Origin: Cloacibacillus sp.
GTDB lineage: Bacteria; Synergistota; Synergistia; Synergistales; Synergistaceae
Assembly: GCA_036655895.1 (NCBI GenBank)
Contig: JAVVPF010000008.1
Coordinates: 1 to 64,000 of the forward strand
Direction of reading: 5' to 3'
DNA: 64,000 bases
Part shown: piece by piece, positions 4,318 to 27,614 of the stretch
Numbering within the stretch: position 1 is the first letter of the stretch
Layout of the letters: each line of letters starts with the position of its first letter
Program-made: the position numbers and the translations under genes
The notes under the pieces: model-generated
What the model saw: only the letters and a program-made list of their open reading frames with translations
What the model was told of the DNA's origin: nothing
The model's database searches: none

Positions 4318-6795
4318 ATGGAGACCACGGAAAAATATTGCGGACTGACAAATGAAGAGGCGGCGGCTGCGCGCGCGAAATTCGGCGCAAACAGCCTTAC
4401 GGAGGAAAGGAAAAATTCCCCGCTTATCAAAGTGTTGAAGTTCTTCACGGAGCCGGTCTTCCTGCTGCTCATCGGTGCCGCCTGCATATATTTCTTCCTT
4501 GGGGAGCCTCGGGACGGCATACTCATGCTCGTCTTCGTCATCTTCATGGGCGGCATAAACATCTATCAGGAGTGGAAAACGGACAAGACGCTTTCCGCGC
4601 TCAAATCGCTCTCTTCGCCCAAAGTGAAACTCATAAGAAACGGCGCCATCATCTCCGTACCGTCGGAGGAGGTCGTACCGGGCGACGTGATGCTGCTTTC
4701 GGAGGGAGAGCGCATCTCGGCCGACGCGCGCGTGCTTGAAGCGGACGGCTTTGGCGTGGACGAATCTACGCTTACAGGAGAGGCCGATATAGTATGGAAG
4801 GCGCGGCAGGAGACTGGGGCCGACTCTCGCCACTGGCGGACGGACCACTGCTACGCCGGGACAAGCGTAGTAGCTGGGCGCGCCGTAGCCTGCGTGACGG
4901 CTACCGGACTTGCAACGGAATACGGAAAAATCGGAAAAGACGTAGCTGACGCTCCCGACCGCCCGACGCCGCTTGAAAGGCAGACGCGAAAGCTTGTCCG
5001 CGACTGTTCGATATTCAGCTTCGTCATGCTGCTTTTTGTCATCGCGGCCACATGGCGCACAGGCGCGTCGCTTGTAGAATCGGCGCTTGCCGGCATCACC
5101 ATAGCGATGGCGACCATACCGGAGGAATTCCCGGTAGTTTTGACGGTCTTTCTTGCGCTCGGCGCGTGGAGGCTTGCGAAACGCAACGCGCTCATTCGGC
5201 GCATCCCGTCGGTTGAGACGCTGGGCGCGGTAACGGTGCTATGCGTGGACAAGACAGGCACCCTTACGGAAAACCGCATGACATTAAAAGAACTGACGCC
5301 GCTTTTGGGCAACGCGGAAAAACTGCTTGCTGAGACCGCGGCGCTCGCCTCGGAGACAGACCCGTACGATCCGATGGAGCGCGCGATTTTAAAGAAAGCC
5401 GCAGAAAGCGGCATCGACGTAAAAAAATTGCAGTCGCACAGGCTCGTGCATGAATACCCCTTCTCGTCGGAGTCGCGCATGATGGCCCATATCTGGGAGA
5501 TAGACGGCAAAAAATACGCCGCGGCAAAGGGCTCGCCGGAGAATATTTTCAAACTCTGCTCGCTTAGCAAAACGCAGCTTGCGGAGGCGGAGCTTGCACA
5601 GCAAAGGCTGGCGGACGCCGGCTGCCGTGTGCTCGCCGTGGCGCGCGCGGAGATGAAAGAGATACCGGACAAGATGACTGACTGCACCCTGTCACTTGTC
5701 GGCCTCGCCGCCTTCATAGACCCTCCGCGCGAGAACGTGCCAGCCTCGATAAAGGCCTGCGCCGACGCTGGAGTACGCGTCGTCATGATAACCGGAGACA
5801 ACAGCTCCACCGCGCACAGGATAGCCCACGAGGTGGGGCTTGGCGAAAGCGAAGAGGAACATGTGATGATAACGGGAGAAGAGCTAGACGCGCTTGACGA
5901 AAGTTCTGAAAAATTCAAAGACGTCACTATTTTTTCAAGGATACTTCCTCGCGAGAAGATGCAGATAGTAAAGGCGCTGCGCGCGCGAGGCGAGATAGTC
6001 GCCATGACCGGCGACGGTGTGAACGACGCGCCAGCGCTGAAATACGCGGACATAGGCATCGCGATGGGCGGACGCGGCACGGAGGTGGCGCGCGAGGCGG
6101 CGGACATGGTGCTGCTTGACGACAACTTCTCCACCATTGTAAGCACCATACGCGACGGCCGGAAAATATACGATAACATCCGCAAGGCTATGGAATATGT
6201 GATGGTCATACACTTCCCCATCGCGCTCTCCGCGCTTGCTGCGCCGCTTTTGGGGCTGCCGGTGCTGCTGTCGCCGATACACGTCGTGCTGCTTGAACTG
6301 ATAATCGACCCCACCTGCTCGATAATATTTGAGGGACAGCCGGCGGAGAAGGACATAATGAAGAGGCCGCCGCGCCCCGTCTCGTCGCCCATCGTAACTC
6401 GCGCCATCTTCTGCAAGGCGCTGCTGCAGGGGCTTGCCATATTCGCCGCGGCATTCGGCTCCTACTATCTGCTCCTCGGCCGCGGCGAGGACCACGCGCG
6501 TACCTTCTTCCTCTCGGTGCTGGTGCTTTCTAATCTATTCCTCGTCTACGTCAACCGTTCGGAGAAAGATTTCGCCTTTTCAAAGAGTGCCGCCACGGAT
6601 AAAGTCGCGTGGTTCGTAAACATCGGGATACTTGCGGCACTCATCCTCATGTCCTCGGTAAAACCTATCGCCGCGGCGACAAAGCTGAGCGCGCTTACGT
6701 TCTCTGAATTTATCCTCTGCATCGCGGCGGCGGCCGCCGCCACATTATGGTGGGAGGGCGTGAAGTGGATGCGCCGGATCTCGGAGCGGGCATAA
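4318..6795 (+). CDS. P-type cation-transporting ATPase (P2-like, probable Ni/Co or other divalent metal)
   Basis: An 825-residue P-type ATPase with N-terminal cation-ATPase domain, actuator TGE (STLTGEADIVW, about 150-160), phosphorylation motif DKTGTLT (D311) and hinge TGDGVNDAPALK. Membrane helix 4 carries PEEFP (268-272) where Ca2+ pumps have PEGLP-like motifs, and there is no CPx motif or N-terminal Cys-rich metal domain, so this is not a classical P1B heavy-metal pump. It should export a divalent cation from the cytoplasm using ATP. Cargo is inferred from the upstream candidate NiCo riboswitch rather than from residues. AGGAG precedes the ATG. Confidence 0.85.
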   Translation: METTEKYCGLTNEEAAAARAKFGANSLTEERKNSPLIKVLKFFTEPVFLLLIGAACIYFFLGEPRDGILMLVFVIFMGGINIYQEWKTDKTLSALKSLSSPKVKLIRNGAIISVPSEEVVPGDVMLLSEGERISADARVLEADGFGVDESTLTGEADIVWKARQETGADSRHWRTDHCYAGTSVVAGRAVACVTATGLATEYGKIGKDVADAPDRPTPLERQTRKLVRDCSIFSFVMLLFVIAATWRTGASLVESALAGITIAMATIPEEFPVVLTVFLALGAWRLAKRNALIRRIPSVETLGAVTVLCVDKTGTLTENRMTLKELTPLLGNAEKLLAETAALASETDPYDPMERAILKKAAESGIDVKKLQSHRLVHEYPFSSESRMMAHIWEIDGKKYAAAKGSPENIFKLCSLSKTQLAEAELAQQRLADAGCRVLAVARAEMKEIPDKMTDCTLSLVGLAAFIDPPRENVPASIKACADAGVRVVMITGDNSSTAHRIAHEVGLGESEEEHVMITGEELDALDESSEKFKDVTIFSRILPREKMQIVKALRARGEIVAMTGDGVNDAPALKYADIGIAMGGRGTEVAREAADMVLLDDNFSTIVSTIRDGRKIYDNIRKAMEYVMVIHFPIALSALAAPLLGLPVLLSPIHVVLLELIIDPTCSIIFEGQPAEKDIMKRPPRPVSSPIVTRAIFCKALLQGLAIFAAAFGSYYLLLGRGEDHARTFFLSVLVLSNLFLVYVNRSEKDFAFSKSAATDKVAWFVNIGILAALILMSSVKPIAAATKLSALTFSEFILCIAAAAAATLWWEGVKWMRRISERA

Positions 6796-6864
6796 ATAAA
6801 TTATCAGAATTATCAGATGAAAAACTATATAATTTTTCTTTTTTAAAAAAATAATAATATAAAG

Positions 6865-6893
6865 TTGCTAACACGACCCCGTAATGCTATCAT
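6865..6893 (+). promoter_or_regulatory. candidate promoter of racemase-family gene
   Basis: TTGCTA (6865-6870), 17 bp, TATCAT (6888-6893), placed 39 bp before the start codon at 6932 in an AT-rich gap. Confidence 0.5.
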
Positions 6894-6931
6894 TAAACAA
6901 CTGTATGGAGCAATAGTTGGGAGATGATAAA

Positions 6932-7936
6932 ATGAAAATAGGCAAAATGGTTGCCGTTGTGGATTCGCATACATGCGGAGAGCCTACGAGAATCGTCATC
7001 GGAGGCGCTCCGCTCTTTCACGGCGCGACGATGGCGGAGCGCTGGGAGGATTTTAGAAACAATCACAACGATTTCAGGCGTTTCATAATGACGGAGCCAA
7101 GGGGACATTCCGATATGTTCGGCGCTATCATGACGCCGCCGGTGAGCGCAGACGCGGATACCGGCGTCATATTCTGCGACTCCGGCGGGAGCGTCTCGAT
7201 GTGCGGGCACGGCTCCATCGGCCTTGCCTCCGCGATGGTGAATTTGAAGATGGTTCCAGTCTTTGAACCATTTACCAATATCAAGCTCGATACTCCGGCG
7301 GGGCCAGTCTCACTTAAGGTCGAAGTGGAAAACGGCGAGGCCGTAAGCGTCACTTTGCAAAATGTTCCAGCCTTTGTCTATGCCTCTGACCTTGAGCTTC
7401 ATCTTCCGTCTCTCGGCCATTCAATAAAATTCGACATCTGCTTCGGCGGCAGCTTCTTCGCCATCCTGAACGCGGACGACTTCGGCCTGGAGCTGGCCCC
7501 CCATGAATGCTCAAAGCTGCTGACGCTAGGCGTTGAGGCGATAGAAGAAGCCAACCGTCAATATTCAGTGCAGCATCCGCTTATCCCTGAGAATAATAAA
7601 ATACTGCTCGCGGAGTTCGGCCTGCATCGGGAGGGACATGCGGCGCGCAACTGCGTCGTCTTCGGCACCTGCAACCTAGACCGCTCCCCATGCGGCACAG
7701 GGACATGCGCGAAGATGGCGCTGCTCGCATCAAGGGGAGAGCTTGCGCCCGGCGAGCGCTTTATTCACGACAGCATCCTTGGAACGACCTTTGAAGGCCA
7801 TTACGAAAATGGCCCGATGATAGGGACATTCAGTTCTATAATCCCGTTTATAAAGGGCAGCGCGAACATCATCGGCTTCAACTGGCTCATAAGTCATGAG
7901 AGCGATCCGCTGCTTCCGGGCTTTCTTCTTCATTGA
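6932..7936 (+). CDS. proline racemase / 4-hydroxyproline epimerase-family protein
   Basis: A 334-residue member of the proline racemase family (ProR, 4HypE, trans-3-hydroxyproline dehydratase). Both catalytic cysteines of the cofactor-independent two-base mechanism are present: C91 in MCGHGSIG and C254 in DRSPCGTGTC. A dehydratase would normally have Ser or Thr at the first site, so racemase or epimerase activity is favoured. Length matches clostridial proline racemase. Substrate (proline, 4-hydroxyproline or another imino acid) is not decidable here. The ATG at 6932 is chosen over a TTG at 6917 because GGGAG lies 8 nt before it. It is transcribed alone, facing the end of the eut operon. Confidence 0.85.
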   Translation: MKIGKMVAVVDSHTCGEPTRIVIGGAPLFHGATMAERWEDFRNNHNDFRRFIMTEPRGHSDMFGAIMTPPVSADADTGVIFCDSGGSVSMCGHGSIGLASAMVNLKMVPVFEPFTNIKLDTPAGPVSLKVEVENGEAVSVTLQNVPAFVYASDLELHLPSLGHSIKFDICFGGSFFAILNADDFGLELAPHECSKLLTLGVEAIEEANRQYSVQHPLIPENNKILLAEFGLHREGHAARNCVVFGTCNLDRSPCGTGTCAKMALLASRGELAPGERFIHDSILGTTFEGHYENGPMIGTFSSIIPFIKGSANIIGFNWLISHESDPLLPGFLLH

Positions 7937-24605: not shown

Positions 24606-24634
24606 TTGAATTTTTGGCGGCTGGTGGGTACAAT
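24606..24634 (+). promoter_or_regulatory. promoter of the VirD4-like/AAA+ cassette
   Basis: TTGAAT (24606-24611), 17-bp spacer, TACAAT (24629-24634), about 65 bp ahead of the first gene of the trio and divergent from the eut operon. Confidence 0.65.
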
Positions 24635-24699: not shown

Positions 24700-26154
24700 A
24701 TGATAGAGATAAAAAATTTTGGGCCGGAGCTTTTATACGGCAGCGACACGCTGATGCTTGGCGGAAGCGAAAGAAAGACGGCGAGCTTCCGCAGGACTAT
24801 TGAGATGTGGCCTGACGCCTATCCCGATACGGCGCTTGTCGTCTTCGACTATTCCGGCAAGCTCTATGAAAGCTGCGCGGCAAACGCGGTGCTCGCGGAC
24901 CTTTCAAGCGAAAACTCCGTAATGCCGGATATAATAGAGCCGTTCGTCACAAGCGAACGCTTCGGCGCGACCAGCGCGGGCATCGCGCGCGTAATACGCC
25001 ACTCCGTCTATGAAGAGATACGCTCGCGCGACGCTAACGACAAATTTTTCGACGACTTGGGCAAACTTTCTACGGAAAGAATGTTCACCTACATGCTGGA
25101 GACGGAAAAAAACGTTCTGAAAAACATGGCGGCAGCAAGGACAGACGAAGGCGGCGCGCTGCTTTCCACGATAGCCTCGCACAACCTGTGGCCTATCTTC
25201 TGCCGTCAGCACCAGTATATAGAAACTCTGATGACGAAGACGATAGGCGGCGAGACGGACGCTCTGCCTGTAAAGTACAGGCTGCGTGAGATGGAGGCGG
25301 CTCACGGCGCTTTGACGCGGGAGTTCGCGCTCTCAAAATACATCATGGAGCGAGAGCTGCGCTTTCAGAAGAGGGGCGACCGTGAGGAGCTTGTCCCCTT
25401 TGCCGACCTGCTTTTGACAAACGGAGACAACACGAACACGCAGCGCTGCATCAAGATGCAGGCAGACGCGAATACATCGAACTTCCGCGCGCTGATGGAG
25501 ACTGTGACGGAAAACACCGCGCTCTTTGCGGCTCTGCCCGCCTTCAAGCTCGGAGATTATATAAACGCGCCGGCGGGACGCGTGCTCTTTGTCTGTTCAA
25601 GCGGCAACGCGGCGGCGGACCGCGGCTTTGCGCCGATGCTGACGGCGGCGCTCGGCGCAGCCGCGCAGAACGCGGGGCGGGGCGCGGCAGTACTGATACC
25701 GGAGCTTGACAGATGGGGAATGCTGAACTTCCTTGATAAATTCCGCCAAAGCTGGGAGGAGCTGAGCTTTGTCTTCGGCTACGACAATTTCTCGCGCCTC
25801 TCGCTTGAAAGCAGATGCGAAGAAAGCCAGCTGATAGAGACGCTATACTCGGCGAGCGCCCAGCGCATGTGGCACGCGGCGGAAGAGGAGCGCCTAACGC
25901 GCGCCTTCGACTCCTACGTCTCCGCAGCCGACGTAATCTACAGGCCGGAGGACTTGAACGACGAGATACGCGCGATAGAACGCGACGGCAGCATAAGCTA
26001 CGTTTCGTTTGCGGAAGGCCCCTTGCGCACACTAAGAAGCCGCGCGAAGCTGCGCAGGAGCCGCAAAAGCTCGCCGCTTTGGATAACTCAGGGCGCGGAA
26101 CATTTTGAAAAATTGACGCTAGAATCGCTTTTGGAAGAGGGGGAGACTCTGTGA
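24700..26154 (+). CDS. degenerate VirD4/TraG-like protein
   Basis: A 484-residue protein I cannot assign with certainty. Its landmarks parallel the cytoplasmic part of VirD4/TraG coupling ATPases. A glycine-rich loop keeps Lys-Thr but is shortened (LMLGGSERKTASF, 18-30). VVFDYSGKLYE (47-57) lies where those proteins have DPKGELY. A late LIPELDRWGMLNFLDKFRQS (332-351) corresponds to the DEF-type Walker B region and its following helix. The N-terminal membrane segment is missing and the Walker A is atypical, so ATPase activity is doubtful. The ATG at 24700 has GGGGAA upstream. The stop overlaps the start of the AAA+ gene. Confidence 0.5.
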   Translation: MIEIKNFGPELLYGSDTLMLGGSERKTASFRRTIEMWPDAYPDTALVVFDYSGKLYESCAANAVLADLSSENSVMPDIIEPFVTSERFGATSAGIARVIRHSVYEEIRSRDANDKFFDDLGKLSTERMFTYMLETEKNVLKNMAAARTDEGGALLSTIASHNLWPIFCRQHQYIETLMTKTIGGETDALPVKYRLREMEAAHGALTREFALSKYIMERELRFQKRGDREELVPFADLLLTNGDNTNTQRCIKMQADANTSNFRALMETVTENTALFAALPAFKLGDYINAPAGRVLFVCSSGNAAADRGFAPMLTAALGAAAQNAGRGAAVLIPELDRWGMLNFLDKFRQSWEELSFVFGYDNFSRLSLESRCEESQLIETLYSASAQRMWHAAEEERLTRAFDSYVSAADVIYRPEDLNDEIRAIERDGSISYVSFAEGPLRTLRSRAKLRRSRKSSPLWITQGAEHFEKLTLESLLEEGETL

Positions 26155-26969
26155 TGGCCGCGCATCAAAAACTGCCTCCGCTTTGCGCAAAATTCGGGCG
26201 GGCGCTGAACGGAGAGACGAAGGGGCTCGAACAGATCCTACAGGACGACGCGGCGCTTGACCGCATCGCAGTGGCGCTTGCATCGGAGGAACAGAACAAC
26301 GTAGCGCTCACCGGCCCGGCCGGCTGCGGAAAGACGACGACGGTACGGATGCTCGCTTCGCTCATCGAAGAGGGACGCTACGCGAGGCTTGCTGGCCGCC
26401 GCGTCTGCGAACTGAACATAGACCTCATCAATCAGGAGCGCGACAAGCGCGACCTGCGCTTCAAACACATTCTCGACGAGGCCGAATATTACGGAATAAT
26501 AATCTATGTGGACGAGGCGCACCGGCTCAGTGAAAATTCCGGCCCGACCAACCTGCTCAATACCTTAAAGCCGTACATCACAAGCGGTGGAATAAGTATG
26601 CTAATCTCCACCACGTCAGAAGAATTTCAGCGCTACATCGCCTGCGACCGCGCCATTGAGCGCCGCTTTCAGGCAATAGAGCTCAAAGAGCCGAACCGCG
26701 AGCGGCTGCTTGGAATAATCGAGCGCGTGGCGCGCGTGCGCTATCCGCGCACAGTGGTGACGCGCGGCGCCGTTGAAGAGACGGCGCGGCTTGCCGCGCT
26801 CTGCGCGCCGGAAAGATCGGAGCCGGCGCGGTCGCTGGAGCTGCTGCACTACGAAATATCGGCGGCGCAGATAGACCTGCCGCCGGGAGAACACGCCGCG
26901 CGCATAGAGGCGGAGGACGCAAAGGCGGCCGCGGCGCTCAAAACGGACGGCGCGGCGGGAGGCGAATAA
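26154..26969 (+). CDS. stand-alone AAA+ ATPase resembling the ClpB/ClpA D1 module
   Basis: A 271-residue single AAA+ module. Walker A is LTGPAGCGKTTTV, Walker B IIIYVDEAHRL, sensor 1 MLISTTSEEFQRYI, and the arginine-finger segment CDRAIERRFQAIELKEPN closely parallels ClpB D1 (DAALERRFQ...EP). There is no N-terminal Clp domain, middle coiled coil or D2, so it is not a complete disaggregase. It probably forms a hexameric motor or a regulatory ATPase acting with its neighbours. The ATG overlaps the upstream stop (TGATG), with GGGGAG before it, implying tight co-translation. Confidence 0.75.
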   Translation: MAAHQKLPPLCAKFGRALNGETKGLEQILQDDAALDRIAVALASEEQNNVALTGPAGCGKTTTVRMLASLIEEGRYARLAGRRVCELNIDLINQERDKRDLRFKHILDEAEYYGIIIYVDEAHRLSENSGPTNLLNTLKPYITSGGISMLISTTSEEFQRYIACDRAIERRFQAIELKEPNRERLLGIIERVARVRYPRTVVTRGAVEETARLAALCAPERSEPARSLELLHYEISAAQIDLPPGEHAARIEAEDAKAAAALKTDGAAGGE

Positions 26970-26994
26970 TAGATGCTGAAAGCTACAATGGAAA

Positions 26995-27489
26995 TTGCCA
27001 AAGAATACGGCGCCGCAGAAAAAAGAGGCTGCGGAGCTTGCCAAAAAAACGCTGGAACAGATACACCGCGAATATCTGGAGGCGGTATTTACCGCGGCGT
27101 GCAGGCGGCGCCTCGACCTCTGGGACTTCGCTCAGAAGTTCATGGAATCGCGCTTTTCACTTGCGCTCGACCGCCCGAAAGAGCTGATGCAGCTCGACAA
27201 AGATGAAATATTTCGGGATTTTATGATAAGCTGCGCGAAAAAAGGTGTAAGCGTCGAATATGTCATAAAGGAAAAGGCGGGCATGGAGGCCTTCCGCACT
27301 CTGCCGCCCGCGGGCCGCTGGCTTGCCGAGCTTTACTCAAAATGGCACGCCAAGACCGGCGAGGCCTCCTGCGAGATAGCAGAACGCGCTCCCGCCGCAA
27401 TGCTGAAAAAAATAAGCAAAAAGGCGATGCTGCACCAAACGGACCAGATAATAGCGCTGCTTTTGGAACGTTCGGCGGAAAAAGAATAG
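26995..27489 (+). CDS. helical protein of unknown function, third member of the AAA+ cassette
   Basis: A 164-residue, charged, mainly helical protein with no recognised domain. The opening KKEAAELAKKTLEQIHREYL looks like coiled coil. No ATG exists near the start of this frame; the TTG at 26995 has little ribosome-binding signal. A well-placed ATG with GGGAGG upstream lies at 26973 in another frame. Loss of one A from the A6 run at about 27018-27023 would join that start to this frame. So this is a TTG-initiated gene, a slippage or frameshift gene, or a recently broken one. It ends shortly before a strong terminator. Confidence 0.6.
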   Translation: MPKNTAPQKKEAAELAKKTLEQIHREYLEAVFTAACRRRLDLWDFAQKFMESRFSLALDRPKELMQLDKDEIFRDFMISCAKKGVSVEYVIKEKAGMEAFRTLPPAGRWLAELYSKWHAKTGEASCEIAERAPAAMLKKISKKAMLHQTDQIIALLLERSAEKE

Positions 27490-27584: not shown

Positions 27585-27614
27585 AGAAAGGAGGGGATTT
27601 CCCCCTCCTTTTTA
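27585..27614. terminator. bidirectional terminator
   Basis: AAAGGAGGGG (27587-27596) and CCCCTCCTTT (27602-27611) form a perfect 10-bp stem, with A-run upstream and T-rich tail. It ends the AAA+ cassette and probably the convergent diguanylate cyclase gene. Confidence 0.85.

Follow-up and report, generated by a model that had tools for sequence, protein, structure and literature searches.

A conserved three-gene operon in Synergistota that places a lone Clp D1-type AAA+ ATPase beside a predicted VirD4/HerA-fold pseudo-ATPase

Layout and distribution of the operon

The window analysed here is a 64,000-nucleotide stretch of a Cloacibacillus sp. genome (GenBank assembly GCA_036655895.1, contig JAVVPF010000008.1). 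It carries three consecutive open reading frames, all on the + strand, whose location was confirmed as originally predicted. Gene 1 (24700..26154) has an ATG start and encodes a protein of 484 aa, a soluble pseudo-ATPase with a predicted VirD4/HerA fold. Gene 2 (26151..26969) encodes a lone Clp D1-type AAA+ ATPase of 272 aa and overlaps gene 1 by four bases. Gene 3 (26995..27489) encodes a predicted helical protein without a known family, 164 aa long when counted from a TTG codon. The overlap between genes 1 and 2 (ATGA) is identical in 10 of 10 loci that carry the trio, and the spacing between genes 2 and 3 ranges from -7 to +6 bases in nine homologues. Genes 1, 2 and 3 form one operon.

Behind the operon lies an intrinsic-terminator-like hairpin of 12 pairs with a T run (27585..27613, + strand), which can also be read on the other strand, towards a converging GGDEF gene. 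Upstream of gene 1, a weak sigma-70-like match (24606..24634, + strand) agrees with the consensus at 9 of 12 positions; sites of this 9/12 type occur five times in the region, against 1.4 expected by shuffling. No Rfam families are present in the region. The original prediction had described the genes as co-translated, with a promoter and a terminator of their own. The overlap of genes 1 and 2 and the strong terminator-like hairpin uphold the first and last parts of this description; for the promoter there is a weak consensus match only.

The trio, carried by Synergistota of gut type, was found in 10 of 188 genomes of this phylum, distributed over six genera of one family; in all ten, its genes adjoin one another in an unchanged order. 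Gene 1 homologues in the nine other trio loci are 57-67% identical to the window copy, and gene 2 identity across the trio loci is 73-82%. Gene 3, searched on its own, turned up in the ten of the 188 genomes that have a trio-type gene 1 and in no others. Purifying selection acts on genes 1, 2 and 3 alike, with dN/dS values of 0.06-0.21 (five pairs). Since the flanking genes vary from genus to genus, the conservation concerns the trio itself and does not extend to a longer syntenic block. A peptide-pattern scan of a bacterial genome collection returned matches in Synergistota only. On a RecA tree, trio presence requires four label changes and is clustered by genus, in a poorly resolved topology. 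A separate observation concerns RecA itself: the match in G029 (contig C1, about 1009380; L131) covers model positions 2-205 only and lies inside a 1093-aa open frame, and the genus mate G015 has no RecA match, possibly owing to an intein or another insertion.

The association of genes 1 and 2 extends beyond the trio. The two are adjacent in 13 of 13 loci (12 genomes), including three divergent loci, L027, L033 and L226, in which the gene 1 relatives are 20-25% identical. A profile search with gene 2 returned the same genomes as gene 1 minus G075, whose longer AAA+ protein fell below the cut-off of that search. The last profile search with gene 1 returned no further locus. Genes 1 and 2 were never seen apart among the loci found. 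The linkage on which the original prediction depended is thus conserved, with the trio in every genome that has a trio-type gene 1 and the linkage of genes 1 and 2 reaching into distant relatives. No description of a gene 1-type protein paired with a Clp-type gene 2 was found in the literature searched.

Predicted fold and Walker motifs of gene 1

Gene 1 matched no family in Pfam (including PF02534), NCBIfam, PHROGs or PADLOC and had no match among PDB sequences; it represents a family without any current annotation. An AlphaFold2 model from six sequences was poor (mean pLDDT 48, pTM 0.46), and its predicted order of strands and helices is that of VirD4/TraG/TrwB proteins. With this model of mean pLDDT 48 as the query, the best Foldseek match was TrwB at full length (E 6.5e-5), and the 28 PDB matches at E <= 0.001 were all TrwB, Cag-beta or SIR2-associated HerA. 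In a viral structure library, FtsK-HerA type proteins were prominent, including packaging-type ATPases. Only two viral matches reached E <= 0.001, one named as a conjugal transfer protein (E 4e-4) and a phage protein with the uninformative database name Msb; the third was a putative viral ATPase. Albeit on a model of pLDDT 48, structure prediction with its 28 PDB matches thus points to the VirD4/TrwB fold that the original prediction had read from sequence landmarks.

Profile comparison of gene 1 with conjugative VirD4 proteins found nothing. Against the soluble VirD4-like proteins of two other loci (L075 and L076), the N and C halves of gene 1 each aligned in register and colinearly at P about 0.02, and this alignment covers the Walker A and B positions. 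However, when 70 proteins were compared as a control, the soluble VirD4-like ones were outscored by an unrelated protein, so a P of about 0.02 is not significant alone. Profile-profile comparison was therefore set aside as proof of VirD4 homology and is taken as suggestive only. From the low-confidence model together with the motif remnants, gene 1 very probably adopts a VirD4/TrwB/HerA fold.

The Walker A remnant of gene 1, LGGSERKT, lies at 24757..24780 (+ strand, residues 20-27). Among the ten trio proteins, its S/T position holds T, N, M, E, K, R or A; GK[ST] is absent from the three divergent relatives. The Walker B remnant, AAVLIPELDRWG, lies at 25684..25719 (+ strand, residues 329-340) and has Pro in place of Asp; this position is P or S in 13 of 13 family members. 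Both Walker motifs are lost in gene 1 of all 13 members, which represent four lineages. Judged from these residues, the Walker A of gene 1 is a remnant and not a working P-loop. The 'shortened Walker A' (GGSERKT) first reported is indeed degenerate, and more so than its letters suggest, given the variable T position of the homologues and the P or S at the Walker B Asp. An active coupling ATPase was rejected because of the lost catalytic residues, and the loss of both motifs across four lineages supports the inactive VirD4-like scaffold first suggested for this protein.

Gene 1 also lacks the membrane anchor of its presumed relatives, as had been supposed. It has no membrane segment, and its hydropathy over 19 residues peaks at 0.94, whereas 9 of 10 genuine VirD4 proteins from the phylum reach 2.3-2.8 (the remaining one is a fragment). 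Gene 1 resembles VirD4/TraG/TrwB (PF02534) and FtsK-HerA proteins in its predicted fold order, its full-length Foldseek matches and the Walker A and B remnants in their expected places, but differs from VirD4/TraG/TrwB proteins in having no transmembrane anchor, no catalytic Walker residues and no accompanying conjugation genes.

One origin for such a protein would be a domesticated conjugative element, of which gene 1 would be the decayed coupling protein, kept for a host function together with neighbours that came along. This would fit the predicted VirD4/TrwB fold, the integrase-like gene near L027 and the active soluble VirD4-like protein that adjoins a ClpP-like gene in G115 (L074). However, the operon contains no other conjugation gene. 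No PF02534 coupling protein was found in the window's genome, which therefore offers no conjugation machinery for gene 1 to serve, and no relaxase or T4SS genes were seen among the ORFs read by eye around the ten trio loci; these results agree with the earlier remark that no conjugation or secretion genes lie nearby. The purifying selection on genes 1, 2 and 3 likewise speaks against a remnant, and the same catalytic losses in four divergent lineages indicate an old pseudo-ATPase family, not recent decay. We consider a conjugative remnant very unlikely.

The AAA+ module of gene 2 and the helical protein of gene 3

Gene 2 matches the D1 ring of Hsp104, ClpC, ClpA, ClpB and ClpV end to end and has no N domain, M domain or D2. 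The single AAA+ module likened to ClpB D1 in the original prediction is hence confirmed as Clp D1-like and standing alone. The possibility that it is a broken ClpB or ClpC was rejected, as full-length genes for both lie elsewhere in the genome and ten genomes conserve gene 2 as a separate gene. The Walker A motif GPAGCGKT (26313..26336, + strand) is intact, with invariant columns G55, G58, G60, K61 and T62, as are the Walker B motif IIYVDEAH (26499..26522, + strand) and the arginine pair R171-R172 of the ERRF motif (26661..26666, + strand). Walker A, Walker B, the TT sensor (sensor 1) and the RRF arginines are invariant in the gene 2 alignment.

The pore-loop-1 region (26421..26459, + strand) is altered. 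Three residues are deleted, including the gripping aromatic of ClpB/ClpC (KYRG/KFRG), as judged against the ClpC (AGTKYRGEF) and ClpB (AGAKFRGEF) of the same genome. The divergent gene 2 relatives of L027 and L033 keep a tyrosine near the position of this aromatic. Gene 2 thus shares with Class I Clp/Hsp100 proteins (ClpA, ClpB, ClpC, ClpV) a D1 domain with Walker A, Walker B, TT sensor and RRF arginines. It differs from them in the missing N and M domains and in its obligate gene 1 neighbour, and two of their features, the pore-loop-1 aromatic and a second AAA+ ring (D2), are both absent from it. From its residues, gene 2 is probably ATPase-competent and, in the trio, probably not a standard polypeptide threader. 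Its proposed role as a motor is plausible in view of the retained Walker A, Walker B, sensor 1 and arginine pair; the complex that it would drive is one that we infer.

Gene 2 might instead belong to the dedicated front end of a Clp protease, with the housekeeping ClpP as the proteolytic part. Such a ClpP is encoded in the window's genome, and a ClpP gene follows the gene 1-2 pair in L033. However, gene 2 consists of D1 only, and the ClpP-docking loop of ClpA and ClpC sits in D2. The pore-loop aromatic is deleted in the trio, and no ClpP was noticed beside any trio locus. A protease front end is highly improbable on this evidence.

Gene 3 is predicted to be helical (structure model with mean pLDDT 66). 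A fold search gave no match (best E 0.38), and comparison with Pfam, PADLOC, NCBIfam and PHROGs gave no family. PDC-M42B, a PADLOC match at E 0.022 for one of ten members, was taken as chance. The third protein was originally said to have no recognised domain, and these family and fold searches bear this out: gene 3 is a family without any current annotation. Its homologues are 185-193 aa long, and the window copy, with 164 aa from TTG 26995, is shorter at both ends. The start of the homologues (MLKAT...) corresponds to an upstream ATG at 26973, in another frame. Within 26973-27030 of the window, the ATG frame and the main gene 3 frame disagree beside a run of six A. Because the 5' end and the homologues' start disagree in frame, the 5' end of the window copy likely carries a frameshift, either real or an assembly error; a start at TTG 26995 is the alternative.

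Divergent loci and a possible remodelling machine

The three divergent loci show the gene 1-2 pair in other company, and none of them shows a gene 3. In L027 (G020), a gene 1 relative of 468 aa (22% identical) lies beside a 571-aa AAA+ protein with D1 and an apparently degenerate D2, followed by XRE and ImmA genes, with an integrase-like gene nearby. In L033 (G087, from another family), two frameshifts interrupt the gene 1 relative; after it come, in this order, a lone D1 protein of 276 aa, a ClpP and an 894-aa protein. This ClpP is additional to the main housekeeping ClpP of G087; the association was seen once, in a genome with sequencing frameshifts. L226 (G075) comprises, in this order, an HTH protein (249 aa), a frameshifted gene 1 relative that aligns with the family at P 3e-8, and an AAA+ protein with D1 and a degenerate D2. 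The HTH proteins of L033 and L226 are weakly alike (P 1e-4). Gene 3 was compared with them as a possible counterpart, and the comparison gave no support. In the 894-aa protein behind the L033 ClpP (5059-7743), the N-terminal part is HTH-like and is the part that resembles the 249-aa protein of L226; hydrophobic segments and a C-terminal part reminiscent of helical repeats complete it.

The HTH proteins of L033 and L226 allow another reading, in which the products form a nucleic-acid handling complex. A dead HerA/FtsK-like ring would be loaded or opened by gene 2, with a basic pore loop (RDKRD) contacting DNA or RNA. FtsK-HerA proteins are DNA pumps, and the pore loop of gene 2 is charged where Clp proteins have the aromatic, both of which would suit such a role. 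However, gene 2 is closer to the Clp D1 rings that remodel proteins than to helicases or clamp loaders. The trio has no HTH partner, and the ClpP of one relative points to proteins. We regard a nucleic-acid complex as quite unlikely.

The reading that we prefer, with a confidence somewhat short of an even chance, is a remodelling machine of the Clp/Hsp100 type, located in the cytoplasm and specific to one group of Synergistota. Gene 2 would form the ATPase ring and be the only motor, with one D1-type AAA+ domain and intact catalytic residues. Gene 1 would be its catalytically silent, obligate partner, a ring or ring-like platform set against gene 2 at the place taken by the second ring in ClpA, ClpB and ClpC. 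Because VirD4 and HerA are hexameric, gene 1 is probably ring-like as well. Gene 3 would act as a lineage-specific helical adaptor or substrate-binding subunit. More generally, the third component would bring the substrate or the outcome, in the form of the helical adaptor in the trio and of ClpP in L033, whose gene 1-2 pair could plausibly feed proteolysis through its own ClpP. A physical complex of the trio proteins is fairly probable. That the trio remodels a dedicated target instead of threading it comes close to an even chance; a change in the shape or assembly of the target appears likelier than threading and degradation because the pore-loop aromatic of the trio is deleted.

If genes 1 and 2 do make up one machine, the VirD4/HerA fold, known as an ATP-driven pump, would serve as the dead partner ring of a Clp motor, and a Clp D1 ring would work without D2 and, in the trio, also without the gripping aromatic. 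A hybrid ring machine, with the Clp D1 motor stacked on a dead VirD4/HerA-type ring and with exchangeable third modules (helical adaptor, ClpP or HTH protein), is rather unlikely. If true, a fold known from DNA pumps would have been put to new use as the passive second ring of an engine that remodels proteins. The occurrence of gene 1 with D1 plus a degenerate D2 in two loci weakens the notion that gene 1 replaces the second ring. The trio proteins are all soluble and of ordinary size, which makes the machine idea testable.

Inactive enzymes beside AAA+ chaperones are a documented theme of biological-conflict systems (PMC7159879), and AAA+ chaperones with inactive NTPase partners in such systems are the nearest published theme to the trio (PMC7159879). 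The MoxR AAA+/inactive-NTPase ternary systems (PMC7159879) likewise combine an active AAA+ protein, an inactive NTPase and a variable third protein in an operon. In contrast to these, the trio has an AAA+ protein of the Clp clade, another inactive partner, no vWA protein and no known effector. As a conflict module of the phage-defence type, the trio would use its AAA+ chaperone to hold or release an effector; gene 1 would be the inactive decoy or scaffold, and gene 3, or the ClpP or HTH protein, the variable part. The variable partners around a constant gene 1-2 pair would be expected of such a module, and the adjoining XRE and ImmA genes of L027, with their integrase-like neighbour, point in the same direction. 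However, the trio is present in single copy in all sampled members of its genera, and no phage, transposase or other defence genes were noticed around it in the loci read. PADLOC has no family for genes 1 and 3 (gene 1 returned nothing, and gene 3 a best E of 0.022) and gave generic AAA+ matches only for gene 2. Gene 1 homologues were found neither in phage or plasmid records nor in viral contigs, and gene 3 homologues were likewise absent from viral contigs; in viruses, the relatives of gene 2 are Clp proteins of full length (about 780 aa) without an adjoining gene 1. A conflict module is therefore unlikely.

Apart from the 13 gene 1 loci, anchor-free VirD4-like proteins lie beside protein-handling machinery in three further loci, L074, L075 and L076. 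These resemble the trio in that association but differ in their active P-loops and in having no gene 2 or 3, and their homology to gene 1 is tentative. In L074 (G115:C79, 7449-9345), a soluble VirD4-like ATPase (430 aa) with an intact P-loop is preceded, at a distance of 4 bases, by a ClpP-like gene (199 aa); here ClpP accompanies an anchor-free VirD4-like protein for a second time. In L075 (G115:C6, 720-9461), apparent E2-like, ubiquitin-like, JAB and E1-like proteins share an operon with an active soluble VirD4-like protein (446 aa) and an apparently degenerate VirD4-like protein (588 aa). L076 (G112:C40, 1829-9019) encodes an active soluble VirD4-like protein (434 aa) that is 35% identical to the one in L075. 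The same gene run encodes another VirD4-like protein (465 aa), probably degenerate, as well as one GrpE-like and two DnaK-like proteins.
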